Shown here: one piece after another, positions 126 through 26,029 of the stretch | Layout of the letters: each line of letters opens with the position of its first letter | How positions within the stretch are numbered: position 1 is the first letter of the stretch | From: Prevotella sp. | Lineage (GTDB): Bacteria; Bacteroidota; Bacteroidia; Bacteroidales; Bacteroidaceae | Length of the DNA stretch: 64,000 bases | Assembly: GCA_016286575.1 (NCBI GenBank) | Contig: JAEETB010000001.1 | Coordinates: forward strand, 1 to 64,000 | Direction of reading: 5' to 3' | The notes under the pieces: model-generated | Database searches by the model: none | What the model saw: the letters and a program-made list of their open reading frames with translations, nothing else | What the model was told of the DNA's origin: nothing | Translations under genes and position numbers: made by a program

Positions 126-476
126 TTAGTTTGGATAGCAGTAGACAGCAACTGCATACAGGTTATTACTCTTAATCTCAATACTGTCACCATCAGGACT
201 CTGAAGCTGTAACATCTTAACCTCCCAGGTCATCTGCTTTGGAGTTTCTTCCTCCAGCGAGAGGGATATGAAAGAGTGCTGCGGCTGCTCCACTGGCTTT
301 GTTGCAGAATAGGTTTTCTTGAACTCCATGAGCCAATTGTAGTCCACTGCTTCATCCTTACCGCTCGGCTTTGCCGCTTGCCACCAACGGGACGCAAGAA
401 TATTACGCAGGCTCCTTCCATTACGGTTCTGGTTGTAGTCCTGCATTACTTTCTCAAAATACTCTCTTGTCTCCAT
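126..476 (-). CDS. IS66 accessory protein (first frame) carrying an in-frame repeat insertion
   Basis: The protein starts METREYFEKVMQDYNQNRNG and matches, nearly residue for residue, the N-termini of the IS66 first frames at 8.3 kb and 24.6 kb. The ATG at 476 is preferred because those copies start at the same METxEYF. Relative to the 8.3-kb copy, about 12 extra residues (around ILASRWWQAAKPSG) separate RSLR from DEAVDYNWL. The extra bases are a copy of a palindromic repeat found elsewhere in the window. The frame stays open through it. The role is that of the small protein encoded first in IS66 elements. Whether this version is functional is unknown. Confidence 0.75.
   Translation of the reverse strand: METREYFEKVMQDYNQNRNGRSLRNILASRWWQAAKPSGKDEAVDYNWLMEFKKTYSATKPVEQPQHSFISLSLEEETPKQMTWEVKMLQLQSPDGDSIEIKSNNLYAVAVYCYPN
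361..401. repeat. Bipartite palindromic element, copy A (inside IS66 frame)
   Basis: It begins CCGCTCGGCTTTGCCGCTTG and ends GGGACGCAAGAAT. Hairpin 1 is CGGC-TTT-GCCG and hairpin 2 closes with CTTGC/GCAAG. The second half is almost identical to copies B (13.9 kb) and C (15.0 kb). The first half equals copy D (26.0 kb). It is inserted in frame in the IS66 first open reading frame. Confidence 0.8.
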
Positions 477-502
477 AATCAACTGAAATTTGAATTTGGC
501 GA

Positions 503-510
503 CAAAGGTA
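503..510 (-). promoter_or_regulatory. Bacteroidetes -7 box for the IS66 first frame
   Basis: On the minus strand this reads TACCTTTG, an exact match to the Bacteroidetes -7 consensus TAnnTTTG, 27 bases upstream of the METREYF start. The same octamer occurs at the same place in the IS66 copies at 8.4, 47.7, 48.4 and 48.8 kb. Confidence 0.65.
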
Positions 511-620
511 AATATTATATTTTGAATGACCTTACGCTAAAATGATGGCTTACACTCCATCCTCCAGAAACAACAGAGAATTATGAACAACGGTTTTATA
601 TAATGAGTTTTCAAAAGTAT

Positions 621-3600
621 TCATGAGTTATAAGCTCTGTGACATTCTACCCTCATTAATTTCTCTTGCATTTTAAATCTTAACATGCCACTAGATGTAA
701 CACCTTCTTTAAGGTAACTGGCAAAGTTCACCACCTCATCAGAAATGAACTCTTTCACATATCCTTTATTCAATGCATATTCCAAAATTGTTAACGATAG
801 TGTACTCAATGCATATGAAAGGAGCGGAAGCACTTTAAGTACAAAAGTCCTTGCCTCAACTAATAGTTCTGGTTTAGCAGGGTCCCCTATTACGTTATTC
901 ATCTCCAAGAATGTAGCCCCTTCTACAAACATAAGAAGCAGTGTCTCCATTCGCTTGATTCCTTCCGCTGTAAAATCTCTATTTTCCCCTCCCTCAAACA
1001 ACTTTCTCATCTTCTTTACTGTTGTGTCAGAAAAGAACAGATGCTCAAAAAGATGTGGTGCTTCGGCCAACCAAGAACAATAGAATCGAATAAGATCTTG
1101 CACTGAAGATGATAATAACTCATCCATATCTGTAGAATCCAGTTTACTCTTAAAAGTCTGAATTACGCCTGCTGTCACTCCCGTCTTAAAGGAAACTTCT
1201 TTAATCCAAGATTCCTCTGTTTCTTCATCACTTACCAAGTCTGCTATTTCAAAAATCTTCTTAATGCGTTGCTCTACAGCTTGTTCTCTATTCCTTGTTC
1301 GCAATCGATATGCAAACAAAGCATTCGAGAACATTTTCTCTCCATCCTCCTTAAAACTATTGATTTTCAAAAGTGTATTATGTTGAATCGAATCAACACT
1401 ATTCGTTGTCAACACGTCAGCCAACATCTTGTTGATAGGGTCATCTACTGTCAAACACTGATCTCCTTTCGCAAAAATTTCATCGGTAATGGCATACCAA
1501 TCCCTACTCGTAGGGGCATCTTGATAACCTATCACATGGCTTGGAACAAGTATAGAGGCCCCTTGGGAACTAAATCCTGCACGACCCGCTCTTCCTGTTG
1601 CATTTAGTATTTCTTCAGCACTTATCATCACTGGCCTTCCCTTATCTTGGTCAAATCTCATTTCACCTGCAATGATAACAACATCTACAGGAAGGTTTAC
1701 ACCTTGAGCCAAGGTTGGTGTTGCAGCCATAACATCTATGGTTCCTTTGAAATAAGATTCCATCACCCATCTTTCCTCACGCAATAAACCCGCATGATGA
1801 ACTGCCACATTCATTTCTTCGGAAATATAGGAGTATTGTGAACCTCCTAGTTCTATACTAATACTCTTAAATAACCTTTTATCTCTTGATGTCGGTGTGG
1901 CTGTGCGTAAATTCAAGTCTTGTATTTGTTTAGCGAGTGTCAGAGCAATGGATGGTCTGTCAATAAACACAATAGATTTCATTCCAAGGGATGCAAATTT
2001 GGCAGCAAGTTGCATGGAAACCGCATTCTTATTCGAACTTACATACCAATTCTTATCAGCAGATAGAAACAACTTTTTGTCCAACAAAGGAACTAGATAA
2101 AAATCATCCATATTACTAGAATCCCATTCGCTCTTCAGTGAGAACAAGCAATAAGGTGTGGCCTTCATCATTTCTTTATCTGCTTTCCCTGGGGCTTTAG
2201 TTTTCCCTCTACTTCTTGCTTCGTCCAGTATTGTTATCAGTTCATCAATCTCTCTTTGCTTATACATCAAGCATCCTTGCAACTGACTGGTAGGTTTCCA
2301 CGGCATAGAGAGGTTTAAGCATTCGCGCCCAGTTACATCACTTATCCAGTTCGATATTTCCTCCCCATTCTCTACCATAGCTGATATTAGCACATAATCA
2401 GCATTAGGCCTTCGCAAAAAGAAAGAGAGCAAACATAACATAGCTCCTAATGATCGATGATCTCCGCCTTTATCTTTACTACTGATTATATGGAATTCAT
2501 CCATTACAACTAGCTGCACATCGTCAAAACGGCTAGGATTTAGCGTCATTATTGTGGTACAGCGTTCTGGAGTCATCACCCATACTGGTGCATCCTCTTC
2601 TTGTAACGTAGTAAACTCCCCTCCAAAATACAATCCTTCCGTTTCTTCAATTCCAAGTAGTGTCGTTATATTCCTTACAACTTGATATTCGAGTGCATGT
2701 GTAGGTACTATATATACCACCCTGCCACCGGAAAGCACAGTCTGTATTATCTTCAACTCAACAAGGGTTGATTTGCCCGCACCAGTTGGGAATGTAATAA
2801 CTGACGAGATGCCAGGAATAAGGAAGCCCTTGTTGATGGCATCCAAATGGTTATCCCATAAATAAGGTCTCTTATGAGCTATTTTGCGTATGGTTTCGCT
2901 CCAGCGCTCCTTGACAACTATCCTACTTTCTATTTTTACAGTTGCATGTTCTATCAGTATTTTTGATGCCATCTTCAGCAAACGTGAAAGTCTGTTGAGG
3001 CTGGGATAGACGTGTCTTAAGGGTGATCGCTGAAAATGAAATGTAAATAATGACAGTTCTGTTACGATGTCAAAGTAGGTGGCATCGAACTCTGTATCGT
3101 TCCCAGAAAGTACTCTGGCTAAATGAACAATTCCTCCCGTCAATGTCTTCCACAACAAAGATTCCGCCCTTTCTTCAATACTGTCGGCATTTTGAACTTC
3201 TTTGTCTGAAATGGCAATAATGCTTCCTAAACGCCCTTGTGCCAAATAGCATAAGGCCATAACGAAATCCTTGCGCGACGGATTATCTATTTCGTTCCAT
3301 TTGATATACCCTGCAGTTTCTTCCGCATCCGCAAAATAATGTCCTATGATGAAAAGCAGTAACGCAACTAGTTCTGGTGGCGCATCATATTTATCAATGG
3401 CTACTGCACTTGGTTCAGCAATTTTTGCTAATAGTTTATGGCACATAGCTGCAACATATGCAATAGAACTGTTTAAAGACTCAAATTGTCCAGACTCTAA
3501 ATAAACCTCCAAAGCCAAAGACAGTTTACCTAAATATTCTCTGTCCTGTTCAAGTTCTTCAGCAGGAAATTGAAGCACATCGCCCGCATACTTTGTTCTC

Positions 3601-3713
3601 ATGCCAAGAATGTGGGCATATATCTTAGAAAGCATCTGTGGCAGGTGGTCAATGTCAACACCATCCACAGAGGGTATTTCTTTAATATAGTCTGCTGTTA
3701 CGCTATTAAACAT
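621..3713 (-). CDS. hamB: Hachiman helicase HamB (SF2 DExH, Ski2/HelQ-like)
   Basis: This is a superfamily 2 helicase of 1,030 residues. Visible motifs are Walker A FPTGAGKST near residue 310, a DEFH box near 405, a SAM motif III, and the motif VI region ATGRAGRAG near 710. The order fits the Ski2/HelQ-like HamB family, the ATP-driven sensor half of Hachiman, which acts with the HamA nuclease on invading or damaged DNA. HamA is directly upstream: its stop is at 3715 and the ATG at 3713 follows after one base. The ORF track begins earlier, at a TTG inside hamA, and I reject that start. It is last gene of a three-gene operon. The family call is strong because of the HamA neighbour. Activity is inferred. 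Confidence 0.88.
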   Translation of the reverse strand: MFNSVTADYIKEIPSVDGVDIDHLPQMLSKIYAHILGMRTKYAGDVLQFPAEELEQDREYLGKLSLALEVYLESGQFESLNSSIAYVAAMCHKLLAKIAEPSAVAIDKYDAPPELVALLLFIIGHYFADAEETAGYIKWNEIDNPSRKDFVMALCYLAQGRLGSIIAISDKEVQNADSIEERAESLLWKTLTGGIVHLARVLSGNDTEFDATYFDIVTELSLFTFHFQRSPLRHVYPSLNRLSRLLKMASKILIEHATVKIESRIVVKERWSETIRKIAHKRPYLWDNHLDAINKGFLIPGISSVITFPTGAGKSTLVELKIIQTVLSGGRVVYIVPTHALEYQVVRNITTLLGIEETEGLYFGGEFTTLQEEDAPVWVMTPERCTTIMTLNPSRFDDVQLVVMDEFHIISSKDKGGDHRSLGAMLCLLSFFLRRPNADYVLISAMVENGEEISNWISDVTGRECLNLSMPWKPTSQLQGCLMYKQREIDELITILDEARSRGKTKAPGKADKEMMKATPYCLFSLKSEWDSSNMDDFYLVPLLDKKLFLSADKNWYVSSNKNAVSMQLAAKFASLGMKSIVFIDRPSIALTLAKQIQDLNLRTATPTSRDKRLFKSISIELGGSQYSYISEEMNVAVHHAGLLREERWVMESYFKGTIDVMAATPTLAQGVNLPVDVVIIAGEMRFDQDKGRPVMISAEEILNATGRAGRAGFSSQGASILVPSHVIGYQDAPTSRDWYAITDEIFAKGDQCLTVDDPINKMLADVLTTNSVDSIQHNTLLKINSFKEDGEKMFSNALFAYRLRTRNREQAVEQRIKKIFEIADLVSDEETEESWIKEVSFKTGVTAGVIQTFKSKLDSTDMDELLSSSVQDLIRFYCSWLAEAPHLFEHLFFSDTTVKKMRKLFEGGENRDFTAEGIKRMETLLLMFVEGATFLEMNNVIGDPAKPELLVEARTFVLKVLPLLSYALSTLSLTILEYALNKGYVKEFISDEVVNFASYLKEGVTSSGMLRFKMQEKLMRVECHRAYNS

Positions 3714-3714
3714 A

Positions 3715-4527
3715 TTATTGCTTTTTGCTTTCCAGAATGGCAACTACACGCTCACTCAAATCCTGCATCCATTCCCTCATCTGGGTCAGATAGATTGAAG
3801 CCCCTTTTCTTCGTTCCACATCTCCAATAACAACGGCATCATATCCCTTAAAAAGACCTTGACGCCCTTTATCAGTATTATGACATGATTCACGGGTTAT
3901 ACCTATACGATAAGTCCAATGATCATGATTAGCAAATGAAGGGCTCAACTCTATATATAAATCGCGATTGTTTACCGGGGAAACGAATTGAGTTAATTCT
4001 GACTTCAGTTTATTATCATATATATGCTTTTCGTAGTCCTTAAATTCAGGCAACACTTTATTCCTTACAAAATCACGGGGATTAGTCGTACATTTGTCCT
4101 CTGTAATAATAATCCGTCTTATCTTGTTGTCTGCGGTCAACACCATTGCTAATCCATCAATACCATGCTTAGCCCGTGCATCATGTGGGGCAACCATATG
4201 GATTGGGCAACCCGGATAATCCTGATGCAATTTGATGTTCAGTGCTATCCACGACATCATCTGAAACAGCCATCCATCCCGATGGTCTATCAGCGTTTCA
4301 TTATCAGCAGGAACAACTAACCTACTTATCATATAGTCAATTGACCCATTGTCTGATGGCATTTCTTCTGGTGCGAGTTTCTCTATAATCATATAGACAT
4401 GCCCATATTCGCCCAGCACCAACTGAGCAATCCATTCTGCTAGTTGTTGCTTATCCACAACCTCATAGTCATCATCGACGACCAAAGGGGAAAGGTCTGT
4501 TCCTATAATTCTAATTGGGTATGCCAT
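3715..4527 (-). CDS. hamA: Hachiman nuclease HamA (DUF1837)
   Basis: The 270-residue protein has the DUF1837 layout. GIDGLAMVL (D124) is followed by IIITEDKCT (E143, K145), a PD-(D/E)xK-type active-site pattern. HamA is the effector nuclease of Hachiman and is held in check by the HamB helicase until foreign or damaged DNA is sensed. It is coupled to hamB, with one base between stop and start, and begins 33 bases after the stop of the upstream GHKL gene, so the three genes are probably one transcript. Length is normal for the family. Identity rests on the motif pattern and on the helicase partner. Confidence 0.87.
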   Translation of the reverse strand: MAYPIRIIGTDLSPLVVDDDYEVVDKQQLAEWIAQLVLGEYGHVYMIIEKLAPEEMPSDNGSIDYMISRLVVPADNETLIDHRDGWLFQMMSWIALNIKLHQDYPGCPIHMVAPHDARAKHGIDGLAMVLTADNKIRRIIITEDKCTTNPRDFVRNKVLPEFKDYEKHIYDNKLKSELTQFVSPVNNRDLYIELSPSFANHDHWTYRIGITRESCHNTDKGRQGLFKGYDAVVIGDVERRKGASIYLTQMREWMQDLSERVVAILESKKQ

Positions 4528-4560
4528 AATTACATTTTATCATTCACCCTTCACATCCAT

Positions 4561-6588
4561 TCAATACTCCAGCGACAGCATCTCCTTTGTCAATTGATTC
4601 ACTCCGCTTACGTCCTGTCTCACCTGCTGAATTTCTTGCTGAATAGCCTCATTATCAAAATTCAATTTCTCCAAGATATAATGGTGCCTGTACTCAAACT
4701 CCTTGAACAAGTCATCCCAAGTCAGAGCATATATTTCGTAACGGTCTTGAATATTCACAAGATACCGCTTGTTGTAAACCTTAAAGCTGTCATACTTGTC
4801 AGTGACGTCCTTGTCTAGTGTTTTCCCCACTACAAAGAATTTCCAAATTCTGCTTTGAGCATTGAACTTTGGATCATTCTTTATCAGTCTGAAATAATCC
4901 TCTGTCTGCCTATACTCTTTAATACCAATCTCAACTGATGGCCGTTTTAGTTCCACTATGATGTTGTCCTCCAGCATCGACGATGTGTTTGCATCGTTCA
5001 CCATTCTCTTCCTCGCCAAGAAAATATCAGGTCTTCTATTCTTCTGCTCGTTGTCAATAGATACGTCTTCTGGTTTCTCTTTTCCATCGAGCACATAAGT
5101 ATAATTTGCCAGAGCCTTTTCAAAAGTCACGTCAGCTGAAACCAGATTGAATTGTTCCCCAAACAGCCAAAAGCATTTCTCCATTATCTTTTGGATGTGA
5201 TCTCTCTCCGTTGTAAACTTTTCCAAATCATTAACCAGCAATTTCAGTCTCTCAATAGCAACCAGACGATTATGCATCATGTTTGCCACTTTGCTGATGT
5301 TCTTGATAGAGGTCGTTTTTAAAACATTGTAAAGTCCACTCCTCTCTTCTTCCGTAAGTGTAACGATATCTTCCAGAATACTCAGGATTTTCTCTCGCTC
5401 ATCTGAACTCAAAAGGATATTCAAGAATGCCACAAGTGTTTTTGACTGGTCCTCGTTCAATCCATTGAATATTTTTGGTTGAATAGAATATATCTGCTTG
5501 ATGGTTTCTATTAAGTCCTGTTTACGGCTTTGGTCATATATGTCTTGCTTAAAACTCGGTAATATTCCCTCACGTTCATACCCGTTTACCAACTTGACTG
5601 CTGCAACCTCCTGTACAAAACCCTTTTCCTTTTCTTCCAGCAGCTTCTTCAGTTTCTTTTGCAGCGACTTATATACCCCGTCTGCCTGATTCTTCACTCC
5701 ATCAAACCGTTCTGAAGGATTCTCTTCGTATTCAAAATTATCAAAATACGCAGACTTTACATATATGCTATGATAAAAGCCCGTTGTCTTGTTATTAAAT
5801 GAAGTAAGAGTCTTAAAGTTCTCATTCAGATTAGATTTCATCATGTAAAAATAGAACTTATCACTTATTCTCTTATTCCATCTAATATAGGTTACATCGA
5901 AATGGCTGTTTTCTATATCCATTGGAATATCATCCGAGTCTGCAATGATATCATCATAAGCCATCTCAATTCCATTTATTTTCAACGCTACGCCCTGTGC
6001 TTCTTTCAAGTATAAGAACCACGCGAACTGTTGTTCTAAGTACTCATAAAAAGACTCCTGTTCCAAATTATCAACCGAAATATCATGCAGATTGATGAAT
6101 TTGACTTCTGTGCCTGTTGAATAAACGGTTTTGTCTAGAGTCCTCTCCTCTGTTGTTTCATACGAAGATAGATCCTGAACATCAATTGATATGGTATATT
6201 CTTTTAACTCATCTTGCTGATTCAAATACCTGGTAGTCCATTCTGCACGATAGGCAAACTTCTGGAACGAGAATCTGCCTTTTCCTTTCTTACCATGCAC
6301 GTCTGAAGTTCGCTGATATGTTTGCCTCTTTTGGGAATCAAGAAACTGTCCAAATGTATACTCAAGCAGGTCTCTTCTGATACCTTTACCATTATCAGAA
6401 ATAATCAAATATGCCAAATTCCCCAATTCATCAGCCTTCTGATACTGAATATCGACGACCTTTGCCTCTGCATCAAAGCCATTCCAAATATACTCAACGA
6501 TAGCCTGACGATAATCATCAGTTAATCCGGAATTGATTACGCTTCTGCTGCTTGCAGATAGCTTATGCTTTACGTTATTAGTAGCCAT
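4561..6588 (-). CDS. GHKL ATPase fused to a PD-(D/E)xK-like nuclease domain
   Basis: The N-terminal domain is a GHKL (Hsp90/MutL/MORC-type) ATPase. VEYIWNGFDA carries the N-box (E32, N36), DNGKGI is at 65-70, and a glycine-rich lid (GKKGKGRFSF) lies near 100. The middle, about residues 330-480, is rich in helix-forming and charged residues. The C-terminal part has RRPDIFL (near 518) and IIVELKRPS (near 545), matching a restriction-endonuclease D...ExK site. Fusions of paraMORC/MutL-like ATPases with nucleases are known around restriction and defence genes. It is first gene of the operon with hamA and hamB. It is not a standard Hachiman component, so it may be a third subunit, a regulator or an independent system sharing the promoter. 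Confidence 0.75.
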   Translation of the reverse strand: MATNNVKHKLSASSRSVINSGLTDDYRQAIVEYIWNGFDAEAKVVDIQYQKADELGNLAYLIISDNGKGIRRDLLEYTFGQFLDSQKRQTYQRTSDVHGKKGKGRFSFQKFAYRAEWTTRYLNQQDELKEYTISIDVQDLSSYETTEERTLDKTVYSTGTEVKFINLHDISVDNLEQESFYEYLEQQFAWFLYLKEAQGVALKINGIEMAYDDIIADSDDIPMDIENSHFDVTYIRWNKRISDKFYFYMMKSNLNENFKTLTSFNNKTTGFYHSIYVKSAYFDNFEYEENPSERFDGVKNQADGVYKSLQKKLKKLLEEKEKGFVQEVAAVKLVNGYEREGILPSFKQDIYDQSRKQDLIETIKQIYSIQPKIFNGLNEDQSKTLVAFLNILLSSDEREKILSILEDIVTLTEEERSGLYNVLKTTSIKNISKVANMMHNRLVAIERLKLLVNDLEKFTTERDHIQKIMEKCFWLFGEQFNLVSADVTFEKALANYTYVLDGKEKPEDVSIDNEQKNRRPDIFLARKRMVNDANTSSMLEDNIIVELKRPSVEIGIKEYRQTEDYFRLIKNDPKFNAQSRIWKFFVVGKTLDKDVTDKYDSFKVYNKRYLVNIQDRYEIYALTWDDLFKEFEYRHHYILEKLNFDNEAIQQEIQQVRQDVSGVNQLTKEMLSLEY

Positions 6589-6745
6589 ATTTCGTATTAT
6601 GACATTATTCTCTTCGTCTCTGTGCTCACAGATTACCCTGTAGACTTATTCCTTTTCCCCAACTGCCGCCAAAAACAAGAAAGAGCAAAAAGCCCAAACA
6701 CCTTTCACCAAAGCCATGATCTTTCCGCTCTTCATTTCACGTTCA

Positions 6746-6975
6746 TCACTTAGTAAGAATATCATCCTCCCCCAACGGCTCATACGCCCCGTCCTTCGAT
6801 TCAAAAAGTACCGACCCGCTCTCCAGGCACTCCAGCGAATGCCACCAGTCTTTCTCTACCACAAGCATGCGGTTTTCGCCATTCGCGTCAAGCAGAACAC
6901 GCTCTGTCTCGTTGCCATTCTCGTCGTAGAATATCCAACGGATCTTTCCACGAATAACGACAACTGTCTCCGAGC
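6746..6975 (-). pseudogene. C-terminal stump of a WbuC-type cupin, cut by IS66
   Basis: Reading from the IS66 end the frame gives ETVVVIRGKIRWIFYDENG and ends SVLFESKDGAYEPLGEDD. That matches the C-terminal half of the WbuC-family cupin that is intact at 33.2 kb (STIFEAKDGAYEPQR). The N-terminal half is missing because the IS66 terminus at 6976 interrupts it. The ORF-track methionine lies inside the insertion element and is not a native start. The intact homologue ends the glycan locus, so this fragment marks a former or duplicated locus edge. Confidence 0.75.
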
Positions 6976-7076
6976 GTAAACCACCATATGAACGTAACCC
7001 CGATTTTACGGGCATTACCGCTAACATGATTTTTTGAAAAATTTTATCTGATTGTACTTTGCGCCACTTGATAGTA

Positions 7077-8050
7077 TCAAGCGACCTTTTTTTCCTGCTT
7101 CTTTCCAGGTGTATAATAACACGGGATCATTGACCTGTAGTCATCATCGCCATTCATCATACGGGTCAGTATGTCCTCAACATACTCACCAAAATCAATA
7201 TCGTTCATCTTGCAGCTCTCATACAGAGAGTACATGAAGGCAATATTGGTCGCAGCGTCATGGCTGCCAGAGTTCAGCCAACACCTCCTACCCATAGCCG
7301 CTCGAACTTGTTCGCTTATATGAGCGTAGCGAGTCTTAAGAATGTGACGAAAAACGGATTCGACCGCATTGTTATGCATTTCTATTCTACCATCATGAAG
7401 GAATTTCTTGAAAGCTTCCTCGTCATCGAGTATGTAATTTACCGCTCGCATGACCAGTGCCCCATATTTGTCTTTTTCAGCTCTTATCTTCTTCAGTAGG
7501 CTCATTATCTTGCCCACTATCGAAGCACTGTATTCCAATCGGAACCGATGTCGCCTCTCTGGCGTGTAGTTTCTCGCTTTGGCCTCACGCTCTATCAGGA
7601 ACAATGCATTAATAAGCTGTATCAGCACCAGTACGCGATGGTCAGAGACGAAAGCGTCACCAGATAGTGGGCTTCCTTCCTTATAGAGCATCACCACCAG
7701 TTTCTTCTCCAGTGACAAGGCGGCATGGATATACTCCGTATTGTACTTGAAGTCATCTTCCTTGCTCTTGCGGCTGCGTACCAGTATGCGGGTCTCATCG
7801 TTCTGCACAAAGTTGCAGCTTCTTATCACTTCCAGCATCAGTACTTCCAACCGTGTTCTGAGGTAGTCCATTATCTGATGGATGTATTTGTTCAGCGTAG
7901 ATTGTGGGAAGTGGCACTTCATACTCTCAAGCATCCTGATGACATTCTCCTCACTCAAGTAATAGGCAAACTTCGACTCGAAGTAGAAACGGCAGAAGCT
8001 GGGCATAAGCGGATTACCCTCCACGATGGTCTGCGGCTTTTTGCCAAGCT
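7077..8050 (-). pseudogene. IS66 transposase TnpC, C-terminal part only
   Basis: The frame includes AKKPQTIVEGNPLMPSF at its upstream end, which is typical of the middle of IS66 TnpC. It continues through MHNNAVESVFRHI and GRRCWLNSGSHDAATNIAFMY to the IS66 C-terminal element. Everything before that is deleted, and the junction near 8050 fuses it out of frame to the first reading frame. The ORF track starts at a GTG inside the remnant. In addition, about 15 residues (LKTRYAHISEQVRA region) interrupt the conserved FRHI...MGRR stretch. They are encoded by palindromic repeat copy E. It is unlikely to be an active transposase. Confidence 0.8.
7298..7343. repeat. Bipartite palindromic element, copy E (inside tnpC)
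   Basis: It begins CCGCTCGAACTTGTTCGCTT and ends GCGAGTCTTAAGAAT. Hairpin 1 is CGAAC-TT-GTTCG, a different sequence but the same fold as copies A to D. The right half matches copy D (GCGAGTCTTAAGAA). It is inserted in frame in tnpC, between FRHI and AMGRR. Confidence 0.75.
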
Positions 8051-8341
8051 ATTACTGTTGATGTCTATGAATCCTCCGTCGGGACTCTCAAGCCGGAGGT
8101 GAGATACCTGCCAGACTGGCTTGGGTTGAGTCTTCTCCTCTTCGATGACCAAGGGAATGAAAGACTGAGGGTCTGGTTCCGATTCCTGGACTGGCTTTGT
8201 CTCATTGGGATATGTCCTTTTGTATTCCTGCAGCCATTTGTAGTCAATGCCTTCATCCTGGCAGTACTTGCGGAGGCTGCGCCCGTTTCGATGCTGGTTG
8301 AAGTCCTGCATCACTTTTTCGAAATATTCCTTTGTCTCCAT
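8050..8341 (-). pseudogene. IS66 first frame, 3' end lost in deletion
   Basis: METKEYFEKVMQDFNQHRNG starts at 8341 and continues RSLRKYCQDEGIDYKWLQEY. This copy lacks the palindromic insertion seen in the copy at 0.4 kb, so it shows the uninterrupted form. After DINSNSLA the reading frame crosses the deletion junction into tnpC sequence in the wrong frame (KSRRPSWRV) and ends with foreign residues. The upstream start at 8374 in the ORF track would begin before the -7 box and is not used. Confidence 0.75.
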
Positions 8342-8363
8342 ACTGTAATAGTTTAAACGGAGG

Positions 8364-8371
8364 CAAAGGTA
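8364..8371 (-). promoter_or_regulatory. -7 box for the IS66 first frame
   Basis: TACCTTTG on the minus strand matches TAnnTTTG exactly and lies 22 bases upstream of the ATG at 8341. Confidence 0.6.
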
Positions 8372-8490
8372 CATCTTTATGTTGATATCACCTTACGTTC
8401 ATATGGTGGGTTACAATTCATCCCCCAAACTTCCCATCCTTACTTTCAAATGAATCAAATTCGTTATTCCTTCGTTCTACCCAAGCTCTA

Positions 8491-8553
8491 CCCATACTCT
8501 TTGAGTAAGCCTAGAGTATGCCTGCAAGCAGGCTAGAAGCAGCCTAGAGTATG
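8491..8553. repeat. AGAGTATG repeats around a perfect GCCTGC/GCAGGC dyad
   Basis: AGCCTAGAGTATG occurs at 8508-8520 and again at 8541-8553. An inverted partial copy (CCCATACTCT) is at 8491-8500. Between the two direct copies is the dyad GCCTGC-AA-GCAGGC at 8520-8533. The block lies just after the stop of the metallophosphoesterase gene, so it could be a transcription terminator, although no T-run follows. It could also be a recombination or protein-binding site. Confidence 0.45.
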
Positions 8554-8559
8554 GCAACA

Positions 8560-11500
8560 CTATACATCATCATCTTTATTCACAATTCGTTCTGGGAGCG
8601 CACTTGATTTGTAGTTCCTCGCTTTGTCCAACTCTAATCTGTTACTTCTTGAATAAAATTTAGCCATACCAGCCAAATAGAGTAACTTGGTGTTGCCAGC
8701 ATCTTGTTCGGACATCACATCGAAACGCCACTTATACAAGAGCAAATCCAAAGTATTTCCAAAGTAGTAAGAGTTTCTGTCCGCTTCTGCCAAATATTTA
8801 CGCACGTTCTCAGCCCATTTATCCGGCTGCTCGCTAACTACGATACCTATGAGCAGGTGTTTCGCAATAGGATTTATAGGATTGTTAATCTTATCATATA
8901 TCAAATTGGCCAGTTTGGCTGAATAAATATCGTCTTTATACCATGACAGCATATTGAAAGGAATAGAGACAATGACATCCACCAAGCGTTCATCGTCTGA
9001 TATATTGCTGTCACTAAATGTTTCATCCAACTGAAGGCTGAAGCCATCATAACCAGCCACGCCATCACGAGCCAATGCAGGAGCCATAAGGTAGATGACT
9101 TTTACAACAGCAAGCCATGCCTTGGTTATGGAATCAAATAGTTCTTCTTTCAGTTCTGGACGAATATAGTCACTGTTGCGCATAGCTTTAGACGCTATAC
9201 CAATCATCTCCTGCAGATAGGAAACGGAGTAGTTCTTCATCACATGGTAAACATCCTGATGATATGGTCGCGACGGATTATAGTTTTTATCTTCCCATGC
9301 ATCCTTTATTCTGTCGGGAAGTTTTGACTTCTGGAGATTGTCCTCCAGCTGCTGAATCACATTTTCAATCTGCGCCTCGTTCCTCTTCATCTTAAGCCGC
9401 TGGAATGGATTGACATCTTCAGGGATTCCCACTTTCGACTCTACACTCTGAGTAATATTCTGTATGTCTTTTATCAGCAATTCAGCGGCATCGTTACGCG
9501 TACGGTCGCTACCAGTATAGAACTCCATGATCTCTGGATAGTGGGCATAGTTCTCTTTATCGAGGATGATCGATGCAAACTCCTGGGACTTGGTCATCCG
9601 CATTGCTGCAAAATAGTAAACCCAGAAAGCAAAACGAAAACTGAAGAGATGGGGTTCGTACTGACAGAGTATCTGGTTGTTCAGCAGGATATCAAACAAA
9701 TAACGATAGTCTAGCGTTATCTTCTGTGCATCGCAGAATTTCTTTGAAGCATCAAAGAATTCTTCATCGCTGAAATAGTAATGCTCCGTACGTATAATGT
9801 GTTCGCAGATATAACCAAGCACAAACTCACAGTCCTTTACATCAGGAAGAGATTTGTAATTAGGCACTGTCTCGTTATCGAAAATGATAGAGAGCAGGCG
9901 CTGAATCATGGCCGTACGGTTGACGGGGTTGTCGTCAAACGATTTGTTGAACACCTCCAATAGCGAGATACAACTCAACGGTGTACGATGCATATTGAAG
10001 TTGGTAATATCAGCATTCAGTCGTTTCAGCACCTTGTCGTTCTCATCAATCCGCATCTTCTGGTTGTAAACCTCTACCATTTTACGTACCTGAAAAGTCT
10101 GCAATGGTGCCATGAACAAATTGACAAACGAGAAATCCTGATTGGAGGTAAACTCTTTTTCTATAAGGCTTTTCTCCAACATCGAGCTCAACAGCATGAT
10201 GGGTATTTCAGGATACTTAGCCAAAGTGAACGTCAGGATTTCCTTTGAGTCTTTGTTCGACACATTCCAATTGTCGAATACTATCCATCGTACATCCTGT
10301 GGTTTCTTCTCAAAAGTAGCCAACTGATTTTCGAACAGTTTCTCCGGTTTTCCTTTCTTATACAGGGCACAATCTAAAAACAGACCAAACTTATTCTTTT
10401 CACGCCATAAGCGCAGCAGGAAATGCCAGGCAAACGAGGTCAAGCCATATTGGGCTGGCGTAACTATCTTAATACGTTTAGGTTCCTCATTAAGGATGTT
10501 GTCCTCAGAGAAAAGCTTTTCCTTCTTGAGAGTAAACGCTCGGTCAAAACGCTCCACGCTAAAATAGCGGTCCAACCATACCAGCGACTTGTCGCCATAG
10601 ACAGCCATCGAATCGTTGAGGCGTTCTTCAAAGAGGATAGTTACCTTATCCTTGATGGTTGCCTTTTGCTGTTCTATATTCACAATACCGTCTTCCTCTT
10701 CAGTAAAGCTCCCACCAGGGCGGAAAGCATTACGCTTGTCATTCCACTCACGATAGGTAATCTTCTTTACACCATCGGTATCCAGTTCAATGATGCTGTA
10801 GCCAAGGGTATCTTTCTTATCAGTGAACAGCTGGGGTGCCATACACCAGATGTAGGAATCCTTGCCATTATTGTTGCATAATAAATCCTGCTCGTGGCTA
10901 TGTCCGGTAAGAACCAGATCAAAATTCTGCTTAACTATCTTCTTCAACTCTGCAGATGCCCAGTTGGTATAGTAATCGAAAGGATGGTGCATCAAGAGTA
11001 TTTTTTTCTTCTTGTTATTGCTCACCCATTCGTAGAGTCTACGGGTATCTATGCACAAGCGTTTATCGTCTTTCTGAAGCAAGGGGTAGTTATCATCCTT
11101 CACGCCTGCAAACGAAGTAAGTGCAGAATTAAGACAATATACACTCCACTCGTCATTCAGTTCCACAGGATAGCCAATCAGGTTGAACCCATCACGCTCC
11201 AACCCGTGTATCATGTAGTCATTGTACTGAAGGAATTTGTGTAGGAGCAGGATTCCATTCTCTGAATTAACAAACGTGTTAAAAGAATCCTCCGTAAAGT
11301 TCTGGCTCACTACAGGGCCATATACAACTATATTCTCCTTTATCCACGCACGATGTGCGTCATGGTTCCCGGGGACACAGATGATATTCTTCTTTTTGAC
11401 CCCAGTAGCCATGATAGGCTTGATGAATTGTTTATAAAATGCTCGGTAGATATCCGGAGTGTCGGGATTCTTCACCAAATCACCTCCAAGGCACACAAAA

Positions 11501-11631
11501 ACCTCATGGTCGTTCATAAGCTCTTTCTGCTTCTTGAAGTCCTCCAAGAAAGCGTCCATCACTAATCCTTGGTTCTCAGCCTTGTCTTCCGAGAAATGAA
11601 TGTCTGATACAAAGAATATAGCTACCTTCAT
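8560..11631 (-). CDS. Metallophosphoesterase fused to STAND-like protein with degenerate P-loop
   Basis: Residues 1-260 are a calcineurin-like metallophosphoesterase with all motifs: SDIHFSED, GGDLVKN, GNHDAH, MHHPFD and GHSHEQD. Near residue 390, KIVTPAQYGLTSFAWHFLLRL sits where a STAND ATPase has Walker A, but GK(S/T) is replaced by GLT. VRWIVFDNWN then resembles a Walker B strand. The remaining 500 residues are helical and have no recognised repeat. STAND proteins sense invaders and trigger a fused effector. Here the effector would be the phosphoesterase, acting on a nucleotide or nucleic acid. The ATG at 11631 has a strong Shine-Dalgarno (GGAGGGGAAATT). It follows the 500-residue gene after 16 bases, so the two probably form one operon. 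Loss of the P-loop lysine is the odd feature. Confidence 0.7.
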   Translation of the reverse strand: MKVAIFFVSDIHFSEDKAENQGLVMDAFLEDFKKQKELMNDHEVFVCLGGDLVKNPDTPDIYRAFYKQFIKPIMATGVKKKNIICVPGNHDAHRAWIKENIVVYGPVVSQNFTEDSFNTFVNSENGILLLHKFLQYNDYMIHGLERDGFNLIGYPVELNDEWSVYCLNSALTSFAGVKDDNYPLLQKDDKRLCIDTRRLYEWVSNNKKKKILLMHHPFDYYTNWASAELKKIVKQNFDLVLTGHSHEQDLLCNNNGKDSYIWCMAPQLFTDKKDTLGYSIIELDTDGVKKITYREWNDKRNAFRPGGSFTEEEDGIVNIEQQKATIKDKVTILFEERLNDSMAVYGDKSLVWLDRYFSVERFDRAFTLKKEKLFSEDNILNEEPKRIKIVTPAQYGLTSFAWHFLLRLWREKNKFGLFLDCALYKKGKPEKLFENQLATFEKKPQDVRWIVFDNWNVSNKDSKEILTFTLAKYPEIPIMLLSSMLEKSLIEKEFTSNQDFSFVNLFMAPLQTFQVRKMVEVYNQKMRIDENDKVLKRLNADITNFNMHRTPLSCISLLEVFNKSFDDNPVNRTAMIQRLLSIIFDNETVPNYKSLPDVKDCEFVLGYICEHIIRTEHYYFSDEEFFDASKKFCDAQKITLDYRYLFDILLNNQILCQYEPHLFSFRFAFWVYYFAAMRMTKSQEFASIILDKENYAHYPEIMEFYTGSDRTRNDAAELLIKDIQNITQSVESKVGIPEDVNPFQRLKMKRNEAQIENVIQQLEDNLQKSKLPDRIKDAWEDKNYNPSRPYHQDVYHVMKNYSVSYLQEMIGIASKAMRNSDYIRPELKEELFDSITKAWLAVVKVIYLMAPALARDGVAGYDGFSLQLDETFSDSNISDDERLVDVIVSIPFNMLSWYKDDIYSAKLANLIYDKINNPINPIAKHLLIGIVVSEQPDKWAENVRKYLAEADRNSYYFGNTLDLLLYKWRFDVMSEQDAGNTKLLYLAGMAKFYSRSNRLELDKARNYKSSALPERIVNKDDDV

Positions 11632-11647
11632 AATTTCCCCTCCTTAA

Positions 11648-13150
11648 TTATGCTTGTTTATACTTATTCTCTACAGCCTCTACCAGTTTGATGGCATATT
11701 TCCAGTTGTCATCGGTCTTATACTCGGTCTTCCCCCAATAGTCAACGATGGTCTGACCGGTGGTAATATCAGCCATGATATCCTCGCCCTTCAGACAATT
11801 ATATATCTCGTTACCAAATTTCGTCTTCTTTACGAAAGGATTTATCGCATCAGCAGCTACACGTAGCAACTGTACATAGGGCTTCAATTTAATTTTGTCA
11901 CGATCTTTCTCAAAAAGTTTTAGCAACTGATCCTGACCCTGACCGTAGTCAGCCCTCAACTCTGCTGAGAACAGACGTTCGAAGAAAGCATCCAACTCAC
12001 CCACCTTATGCCCGTGGGCTATCAGCGGTGTAAGTTTGCTATTGTATTTCTTTACGAGATTCAACACTCCATCTACCCTCTCCTGCACTTTTGTCCCATG
12101 ACGAGAGCCATTGAAGCGGCTCTCAAGTATAGGATCAAAATAATCCTTCATTGCGTCCATTAAGGCGAAGAGTGCTTGCAAGTTCATTTCCTGCTCTTCA
12201 GTGAGGTACACATCTTTACGAATCAGATAGTTCGAAACCTTATCTTCATCTAGCACCGGAAAACTGTTTTCACCATCCAGTCTTATAAAATACAGGAACA
12301 TGGCAAACAATTCATCGTCTGCCATGGGTTTGGCATTTGCTGGTATCTGGTCTTCTGATGGATTGGTTTCTTCTTGACTAAACAACGTACGCAGTTTACC
12401 CAGCAGTTCCTCTTGATCGTTTTTTGCGAGTTTCAGTTGCGAGAGTTCCCCTTTGGCGGTTAATTCTAGCAATCGCTGTTTAAGATAACAGAACTGTCCT
12501 TTTACGGTCTTGCTATCTGGCATACAGCAGAAATACTTGTAGTTTGTCAGCTCTGTCTGCACTTGCGCCTTCTTCGTTGAATCCTCCAAATAAAGCCGCA
12601 GGGCTTCTTTGCGTTTTTCTTCTGGCCAGTCCACTGGCATTATAGCCAACTTCAGCAGATGCTCATACACCTTTTGTAACGCCATACGGAAGGCATCCAC
12701 CATGTCCGAAGACTTCATTTTCAAGATAGCCCTGAAAGGCTCCAGTATCTCCTCATCAGGCAATGGCATAGAGCCTTCCGCACTGTCATCCGGAAGTTTA
12801 TCCAAGTGATAACCGAAAAGCTGATTCACAATAATGGTAAGGCGTTTAGCCCTACCTTCCGCAAAGAAGTTCTTATCTTCTACTTGGTATTCTACCCCAC
12901 CAAGCTGTTCTATCCACTGCTGTATCTCCTTCAGCCAGTTGTCAAACTGGAAGCGAACAAAGAAACGGATATCCATATCCGCCTGCATACGATAGTAACG
13001 CGACGACAAACCGCGGGCTATGTTGTAGGCCTCCAAAGCAAACAAGAACATATCGCTCCGATGGCGAAAGATGGGCATATTGCCACTCGCCATCATAAAC
13101 TGCAAGTGCTCAAGTCTGGCTGTTATCAATTTTGTCTGGTCTTCTTTCAT
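11648..13150 (-). CDS. Unknown 500-residue partner of the metallophosphoesterase protein
   Basis: I do not recognise this family. The protein appears soluble, with no signal peptide or membrane segment, and is mostly helical with long charged stretches. Examples are FVRFQFDNWLKEIQQWIEQLG near residue 70 and DAFFERLFSAELRADYGQGQ near 400. No nuclease, ATPase or protease motif is evident. It is the first gene of the operon and its stop lies 16 bases before the phosphoesterase start, so the two proteins probably act together. It could be a sensor, an adaptor or an inhibitor that holds the phosphoesterase off. It is flanked on the other side by a divergent M15 peptidase gene. Confidence 0.55.
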   Translation of the reverse strand: MKEDQTKLITARLEHLQFMMASGNMPIFRHRSDMFLFALEAYNIARGLSSRYYRMQADMDIRFFVRFQFDNWLKEIQQWIEQLGGVEYQVEDKNFFAEGRAKRLTIIVNQLFGYHLDKLPDDSAEGSMPLPDEEILEPFRAILKMKSSDMVDAFRMALQKVYEHLLKLAIMPVDWPEEKRKEALRLYLEDSTKKAQVQTELTNYKYFCCMPDSKTVKGQFCYLKQRLLELTAKGELSQLKLAKNDQEELLGKLRTLFSQEETNPSEDQIPANAKPMADDELFAMFLYFIRLDGENSFPVLDEDKVSNYLIRKDVYLTEEQEMNLQALFALMDAMKDYFDPILESRFNGSRHGTKVQERVDGVLNLVKKYNSKLTPLIAHGHKVGELDAFFERLFSAELRADYGQGQDQLLKLFEKDRDKIKLKPYVQLLRVAADAINPFVKKTKFGNEIYNCLKGEDIMADITTGQTIVDYWGKTEYKTDDNWKYAIKLVEAVENKYKQA

Positions 13151-13381: not shown

Positions 13382-13891
13382 ATGAACAGTAACAATTCAT
13401 TATCACCGCATTTCGAGCTCCGCGAATTTGTCGTCAGTCAGACGGCTCTCGATCATGGGCTTGACAACACGCCTCCCGCTGAGGCGGTAGAGAACCTTCG
13501 CGCTCTCTGCGTTCACACACTGGAACCGCTTCGTGAGGCCCTGGGCTTGCCCATCATCATCACCAGCGGCTACCGTTGCAAGAAACTCAACCACCTTCTG
13601 GTGAACCACTCCACGAAGAGCCAGCACATGAACGGCGAAGCAGCGGACTTCTATGTGGGCTGGAACGGTCCCGAAAATGAGAAACCCTCACGCTGGGAAC
13701 TCCTCATCAAGGCCTTCCGCCAGATCATTACGGATGACAGCATTGCTTTCGATCAGTGTATCATCTATCCCTCTTTCATCCACGTGAGCTACGTGCGTTC
13801 CGGTCACAAGAACCGCAGCAAACTCACTCGCGGTTTCGGTAATGGCAAGTATGCCGCCCTGACCCGTGCACAAGCTTTAGCGCTGGAATAA
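13382..13891 (+). CDS. M15-type peptidase (Peptidase_M15_3, D-Ala-D-Ala carboxypeptidase-like)
   Basis: The protein begins MNSNNSLSPHFELREFVVSQ and carries IIITSGYRCKKLNHLL, SQHMNGEAADFYV and FDQCIIYPSFIHVSYV. This is the typical M15_3 pattern with zinc ligands in SxHxxGxAxD and the HVSY histidine. Such enzymes cut peptidoglycan cross-links and are common as phage endolysins and in small Bacteroidales loci. The ATG at 13382 fits the family start. An in-frame ATG at 13358 would add eight residues. There is no signal peptide, so export would need a helper such as the small membrane protein encoded at 14.7 kb. It is followed by palindromic repeat copy B. Confidence 0.8.
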   Translation: MNSNNSLSPHFELREFVVSQTALDHGLDNTPPAEAVENLRALCVHTLEPLREALGLPIIITSGYRCKKLNHLLVNHSTKSQHMNGEAADFYVGWNGPENEKPSRWELLIKAFRQIITDDSIAFDQCIIYPSFIHVSYVRSGHKNRSKLTRGFGNGKYAALTRAQALALE

Positions 13892-13895
13892 TTTT

Positions 13896-13940
13896 CCGCT
13901 CGACCCGAAGGGGCGCTTGCTACCAACGGGAAGCAAGAAT
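13896..13940. repeat. Bipartite palindromic element, copy B (intergenic)
   Basis: It reads CCGCTCGACCCGAAGGGGCG, then a second half ending GGGAAGCAAGAAT. Hairpin 1 pairs CCC with GGG around GAA. It is 45 bases long, lies between the M15 gene and the next gene, and is followed by AT-rich direct repeats (TTCAATTTTCAAT). It differs from copy C by one base. Confidence 0.8.
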
Positions 13941-13984
13941 CTTCAATTTTCAATATTTAATTTTCAATTAAACATTTAGAATTT

Positions 13985-14954: not shown

Positions 14955-14969
14955 TCCCCTTTCAATTTT

Positions 14970-15014
14970 CCGCTCGACCCGAAGGGGCGCTTGCTACCAA
15001 CGGGACGCAAGAAT
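14970..15014. repeat. Bipartite palindromic element, copy C (intergenic)
   Basis: Same sequence as copy B except GGGACGCAAG for GGGAAGCAAG, which restores a longer pairing in hairpin 2. Both copies lie in gaps of the same mini-locus and both are followed by TTTTCAAT. Confidence 0.8.
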
Positions 15015-15037
15015 TTTCAATAAAAAAAGGTTATGCT

Positions 15038-24231: not shown

Positions 24232-24684
24232 GTAAATTACCATTTTGACGTAAACCTGATTTTCAGCAAGTTACACACAAAACATTTTTGGAAAAAATCA
24301 CTTGGGTTAATAATCAACCCGATTGACAGAGTCAGGCCACCTTTTTTTGCTCTTCCTTGGATGAAAGAGACTTATAATTGCATGGGATGAGAGACTTGTA
24401 ATCATTCTCACCCTTCGTCAGTCTGGGCAGCACATCATTTATGTAATCAAAGAAGTTCAGATCATTGAGCTTACAACTTTCATACAGTGAGTACATGAAG
24501 GCTACATTCTGAGCTGCCATATGGCTACAATTCTTTCGCAGGCTCCTGCCATTGCGGTTCTGGTTGTAGTCCTGCATTACTTTTTCGAAATACTCTCTTG
24601 TCTCCATAATCAACTGAAATATGAATTTGGCGACGAAAGTAAATATTATATACTGAATGACCTTACGCTAGCATGATGGCTTTC
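24232..24684 (-). mobile_element. 453-bp IS66 deletion derivative
   Basis: The left end GTAAATTACCATTTTGACGT at 24232 and the inverted right end (GCCATCATGCTAGCGTAAGG, 24661-24682) match the IS66 termini at 7.0 and 0.5 kb with several changes. Almost the whole element is deleted, leaving the start of the first frame joined to the end of tnpC. No 8-bp target duplication is seen. The position equivalent to the -7 box reads TACTTTCG, so the promoter has decayed. Confidence 0.75.
24332..24607 (-). pseudogene. Fused IS66 remnant: first-frame N-terminus joined to TnpC C-terminus
   Basis: METREYFEKVMQDYNQNRNG (first frame) continues RSLRK directly into NCSHMAAQNVAFMYSLYESC, the C-terminal element of TnpC. 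The fusion is in frame and gives an open 91-residue product with no catalytic domain. It could in principle act as a small regulator, but decay is the simpler reading. Confidence 0.75.
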
Positions 24685-25985: not shown

Positions 25986-26029
25986 CCGCTCGGCTTTGCC
26001 GCTTATTCGAGCTCCGCGAGTCTTAAGAA
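25986..26029. repeat. Bipartite palindromic element, copy D
   Basis: It begins CCGCTCGGCTTTGCCGCTTA and ends GCGAGTCTTAAGAA. The first half equals copy A and the second half equals copy E, so it links the two subtypes. It lies inside the 390-bp IS66-like derivative. Confidence 0.75.

Follow-up and report, generated by a model that had tools for sequence, protein, structure and literature searches.

A two-hairpin palindromic element of Prevotella and its in-frame copies within genes

Two IS66 genes near the start of a Prevotella sp. contig (JAEETB010000001.1, positions 1 to 64,000; this 64,000-nucleotide stretch of DNA is "the window" below) each contain a copy of a short palindromic repeat that leaves the reading frame intact. 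The two copies, A and E, are members of a dispersed family that also lies in frame in many other genes of the genus. We consider it probable that A and E are non-autonomous mobile elements of Prevotella, recognized by their structure as single-stranded DNA, that insert cleanly beside an RTT target and whose frame within genes is kept by selection.

The element family and its distribution

The repeat has the consensus CGCTCG-hairpin1-CGCTT-hairpin2-AAG, followed by AAT. Its ends are CGCTCG and AAG, its two hairpins are successive, and it carries neither a terminal CGTC nor a GTAG tag. Elements are about 30-45 nt in size (the common small form is 30 nt), and cores of 30, 39 or 42 nt are the commonest variants within genes. 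Hairpin 1 has 53 distinct sequences and hairpin 2 has 79; these occur in many combinations among 119 distinct elements, and hairpin pairing is mostly kept via compensatory changes (e.g., GGC-GCC, ACC-GGT, AGC-GCT, AAC-GTT).

A census of 398 Prevotella genomes, sampled as one genome per species, found matches in 194, with a maximum of 53 copies (G367), while a reversed control pattern had almost no matches in the same genomes. The carriers are mainly rumen species, including the isolates P. ruminicola KHT3, P. communis E15-14 and Xylanibacter ruminicola. The element has no specific tie to IS66, the setting in which the first-pass annotation described it. Beyond Prevotella, convincing copies were found only in Marinilabiliaceae and in a few Bacteroidales or unrelated metagenome bins, and a scan of 118 other Bacteroidales genera returned few matches, apparently due to chance. 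The versions in Marinilabilia, Anaerophaga and Alkalitalea (loci L299, L304, L312, L317 and L344) are 30-32 nt long, AAT included, and suggest either transfer or an old origin. Plasmid and phage collections held no match to the 33-nt form, and the element is present on 8 IMG/VR contigs. In the literature covered, which leaves out most subscription papers and preprints, no description of the CGCTCG-hairpin1-CGCTT-hairpin2-AAG family was found; the family is thus one for which we found no earlier description, while the phenomenon of in-frame palindromes is itself already known.

The window contains five copies (none in a shuffled window), and its own genome of 3.5 Mb contains about 20. Copies B, C and D, all on the + strand, have 41-nt cores. 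Copy B (13897-13937) is intergenic and lies between AATTTTC/AATCTTC heptamer repeats; copy C (14971-15011) lies between AATTTTC heptamers and shares 97% identity with copy B across 58 nt. Copy D (25987-26027) is also intergenic, with a hairpin 2 of the copy-E type and AAA as its 3' neighbour.

Copies A and E in IS66 genes

Copy A occupies the IS66 first ORF (126-482, minus strand, 118 aa), which has homologues at 8045-8341 and 24533-24607. The first-pass annotation had placed in-frame palindromes at 361-401 and 7298-7343, and both are present and in frame, with cores at 362-398 and 7299-7340 that are each followed by AAT. The 37-nt core of copy A (CGCTCG-GCTTTGC-CGCTTG..CAAG, + strand) is followed by AAT at 399-401 (+), which reads ATT on the putative active strand and is probably native target sequence. 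Relative to the IS66 copy at 8.3 kb, which lacks the element, the net gain is 36 nt, in agreement with the roughly 12 added codons first described; a single base is missing beside the 37-nt insertion, so copy A is a 37-nt element that was rendered frame-neutral by a 1-nt deletion.

The 42-nt core of copy E (7299-7340, +) is followed by AAT at 7341-7343 (+), the Ile codon ATT on the coding strand. It adds codons to an IS66 tnpC that is truncated (7077-8024, minus strand; DDE_Tnp_IS66, PF03050, E=6.4e-18, covering only profile positions 175-270 of 284), within the R-x-x-A-x-G-R-K/R motif. The location within the FRHI...MGRR motif was read correctly at first; the size, given as about 15 codons, is exactly 14, and these lie between the I and A of FRHI-AMGRR. 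At this site, the sequence in four IS66 homologues of other genomes is R-P-[LVIT]-A-L-G-R-K-N with no insert, so the extra residues are not an ordinary feature of the IS66 family.

By themselves, the two IS66 genes are weak evidence for maintenance of frame, as both would remain in frame by chance about 1 time in 9. The interrupted tnpC is a C-terminal part of 315 aa that lacks its N-terminal part, and the IS66 that bears copy A runs past the contig start, so that neither gene is demonstrably functional. These facts, together with further IS66 remnants in the window, would suit an account in which A and E simply landed in dead IS66 fragments and kept frame by luck, but we regard that account as improbable, given that elsewhere, often in conserved genes, 40/40 copies of the element keep the frame. 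In isolation, copies A and E would be compatible with it.

The surroundings of these genes have features of their own. A third IS66 remnant (24332-24613) has an internal deletion that fuses the first ORF in frame to the end of tnpC. Between the IS66 fragments, at 621-13150, minus-strand genes encode a DEAD-box helicase, an HATPase_c_3 protein and a metallophosphatase (with a weak nSTAND match), a gene run that is perhaps a defence island.

Reading frame of copies within genes

To follow the frame on the two sides of a copy, a hexamer coding model, for which long ORFs in the fetched loci were the training data, was applied to 150 nt per side. In the first set, all 25 copies with same-strand coding flanks were in frame (23/23 when two chance pattern matches are set aside). 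The second set, from contigs of a named-genome scan with the copies already seen removed, gave 14/14, or 13/13 without a case at a gene end, and, with one chance match dropped, the count for the complete P. communis chromosome was 4/4. The exclusions from these counts were made by hand (chance matches L053, L097 and L482; gene end L303). Together the three sets comprise 40/40 copies with coding flanks in frame, where one third would be expected for each without selection; the 40 are not fully independent, as L151 and L367 represent one insertion shared by related genomes. The genic copies include both gene orientations and all three phases. The family as a whole thus bears out both the frame preference and the likeness to Rickettsia palindromic elements (RPE) that had been proposed from the two IS66 copies.

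Core lengths agree with the frame counts. In the first two sets, 35/36 genic copies have a core length divisible by three, vs 69/157 intergenic copies (Fisher 7e-10), and the genic count becomes 36/36 if L113 is read as a 30-nt core plus AAC. Stop codons are absent from all six frames in 28% of distinct elements vs 6% of shuffles, and genic copies are open in the frame used. The hosting genes encode SufD, RsmF, a RecD-like ATPase, a SpoU-type methyltransferase, a MenE-like ligase, TamB, an ABC ATPase, a lipoamide-dehydrogenase-like oxidoreductase, GH3 and GH53 glycosidases, CpsB and a hybrid two-component regulator; they have open frames and match intact domains. As judged from these sequences, the inserts are probably translated and the hosting proteins probably made and working. 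A single-sequence structure prediction of one hosting protein had a mean pLDDT of 40 and was uninformative.

A different fate for the inserted codons would be for the hairpin to be skipped during translation and hence absent from the protein, in the manner of the Magnusiomyces mitochondrial elements (PMC6649704). The hairpins do lie within coding sequence, and copy E interrupts a conserved transposase motif, but skipping requires neither lengths divisible by three nor stop-free frames, yet the genic copies have both, and copy E sits in a decayed gene; we give this explanation very little credence.

Only about 13% of copies lie in genes, so that either most genic insertions are lost to selection or most targets lie between genes. 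On the explanation that we prefer, cores divisible by three, often free of stops in most frames, would allow some genic insertions to be simply translated as 10-14 extra residues, and selection would discard the remainder that are not frame-neutral. The first-pass annotation envisaged a mobile unit with a mechanism of spread that tolerates coding sequence. The RPE-like element is retained in our account, but a frame-sensing mechanism is superfluous, since insertion 5' of AAT, selection, and variants that are divisible by three and often stop-free explain the pattern.

Junctions and target

Two sites define the junctions of the element precisely. At L151, the element lies within the gene for the RecD-like ATPase; it is absent from homologues at 30 loci, one of which (83% identity) belongs to the window's own genome. 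The sequence is GGACAGAATTG at the empty site and GGACAA-CGCTCG...CAAG-AATTG at the filled one; exactly 30 nt are gained before the native AAT (an N codon), with no target duplication. At L407, the hairpin-2 loop of one element holds a second, nested element of 30 nt (CTACC|CGCTCG...CAAG|AACGGG), again with no duplication. When the search pattern did not require AAT, it was nonetheless found directly 3' in 91/98 copies, with AAC or another AAN as an occasional replacement. A different 11-codon insertion (CSDYCTPAATG) is present in the RecD-like gene of L230 (G070), exactly at the L151 element position.

About a third of copies are surrounded by degenerate AATNNNN heptamer arrays (e.g., AATGTTC, AATTTTC, AATGTGG and AATTATC), which include the flanks of copies B (13890-13947) and C (14964-15021) in the window. 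Heptamer arrays have been noted in a few Bacteroidetes and Cyanobacteria (PMC4679880). Such 7-nt arrays also occur in frame within coding sequence, at L261 (residues VESGKWRVESGKW) and in the L204 and L218 proteins; L261 is a G042 homologue of the L015 gene, and its array lies in the protein region that holds the palindromic element in the window's species.

The heptamers raise the question of whether the element might be a MITE of a DDE transposon, with the AATNNNN repeats as a 7-bp target duplication. Flanking 7-nt direct repeats are in fact found at 99/277 copies vs 12 in shuffles; however, the heptamers usually extend as arrays on both sides and look like pre-existing AAT-rich targets, and the element has no MITE-type terminal inverted repeats. 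The precise sites at L151 (empty) and L407 (nested), both free of duplication, contradict a target duplication and indicate that the heptamer flanks are targets, and we judge the MITE origin to be highly improbable.

Flanking inverted repeats were also considered as part of the element and rejected, as there is no clear excess of them. A few copies lie in the loops of other palindromes. Those that do (CCCCTGT|element|AAGGGG) are at L376, L407, L453 and L458, and hairpin loops may be preferred targets. Among 250 hairpin-1 matches, none had a transposase between its hairpins, as a parent element would; of 13 atypical cases, most were other AA-targets or copies that were nested or degenerate.

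The lack of a mobilizing enzyme beside any copy examined bears on whether the family still moves. The genic copies might be in-frame relics of an RPE/REP-like repeat that was spread by an ancient or extinct process and is now immobile, and CGTC REPs, including RPE-4 and RPE-6, are likewise without a linked transposase (PMC3733652). Three observations point towards rather recent spread in Prevotella and make this unlikely: the L407 insertion is cleanly nested, L151 is filled while homologues of 83% identity are still empty, and genomes contain many near-identical copies.

Strand bias and a candidate enzyme

The explanation that we prefer, of a single-stranded DNA element, makes specific use of these junctions. 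The unit would insert directly 5' of AAT, cleanly and without target duplication; on the complementary strand, this would be insertion 3' of RTT, with subterminal hairpins, which is the arrangement of an IS200/IS605 transposase or RAYT (a Y1 HUH enzyme). The insertion site would probably be the lagging-strand template, into which insertion is predicted by the IS200/IS605 model.

Sampled GC skew served to locate origin and terminus on the complete P. communis chromosome, where 34/48 copies (71%) are in the lagging-strand-template orientation (p=0.006). When local GC skew is read in the orientation of the element, it averages -0.014 across 279 copies drawn from many genomes (p=0.001), in the predicted direction and the same after correction for gene orientation. 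The replication-strand bias is modest. Spread is apparently by copy-and-paste as single-stranded DNA.

RAYT-type Y1 genes (260-310 aa) are present in 19/22 genomes with the element vs 35/88 (Fisher 9e-5, uncorrected for relatedness). Among 31 Y1 loci examined, no Y1 gene was flanked by the element in REPtron style; the one at L407 is only an incidental neighbour, and its own palindromes differ from the element. There (L407:1000-2250), repeated palindromes of the CAGGGGCAAGCCCCTG type lie on both sides of a Y1 transposase gene (about 150 aa); they look like the REP family of that Y1 gene and also host nested element copies. Prevotella RAYT proteins include a group marked by SGTGIYHVMLRGINRQ.

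From the junctions and the strand bias, we infer a Y1-type mechanism with a Y1-type enzyme as the putative mover. The fullest version of the idea, that 30-50-nt single-stranded hairpins are currently mobile, write in-frame peptides into functional genes and are moved in trans by a Prevotella RAYT, is put forward tentatively, as somewhat less than an even prospect.

Significance

Movement of the Rickettsia elements is hard to test, as these seem to be inactive and sit in hosts that are difficult to manipulate. In the Prevotella element, the junctions and the target motif can be read, there is a nested copy as well as a strand bias, and some hosts (P. ruminicola, P. communis) are culturable, so that one can test how it moves and what the inserted peptides do. 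Prevotella proteins can bear short inserted peptides, by which annotation and alignments may be misled. If RAYT-driven mobility is correct, an RPE-like process would still be running in a dominant gut genus, where it would be open to experiment.

Comparison with known systems

The ends of IS200/IS605 elements (IS608, ISDra2) have subterminal hairpins and insert 3' of a short fixed sequence with no target duplication. The Prevotella element shares the subterminal hairpins, the fixed target, the absence of duplication and a lagging-strand bias in the matching direction, but it has no internal transposase gene and its target is only three bases (RTT). DDE-transposon MITEs differ by their terminal inverted repeats and target duplication, both of which the element lacks.

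GTAG REP/BIME units associated with RAYT are likewise structured units of 20-40 nt, mostly intergenic and sometimes within ORFs (PMC3733652), and many element-bearing genomes encode Y1 transposases; unlike GTAG REPs, the element has no unpaired GTAG tag, has two hairpins per unit and does not flank a RAYT gene. CGTC REPs (RPE-4, RPE-6, dRS3) resemble it in having intragenic copies, no linked transposase and Bacteroidetes hosts, in which they have been reported without a linked transposase (PMC3733652), but their 8-9-bp stem and CGTC at one end are both missing from the element; the absence of the terminal tag of RPE-4 and RPE-6 sets it apart by the published description of these repeats (PMC3733652).

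The closest precedent for palindromes in frame within genes is that of the RPE in Rickettsia (Ogata et al. 2000, 2002, cited in PMC6649704; also PMC3733652). Rickettsia was the one precedent named in the first-pass annotation; intragenic REPs had already been reported outside that genus, with REPs within ORFs listed for Opitutus, Thauera, Xanthomonas and others (PMC3733652). Like RPE, the Prevotella element is a short dispersed palindrome, in frame in many unrelated genes and with intergenic copies as well. It differs in host phylum and in sequence, in its two short successive hairpins and in the absence of a CGTC tag, and it occurs in many variants in a gut genus that is free-living; its clean junctions and its target motif can be read.
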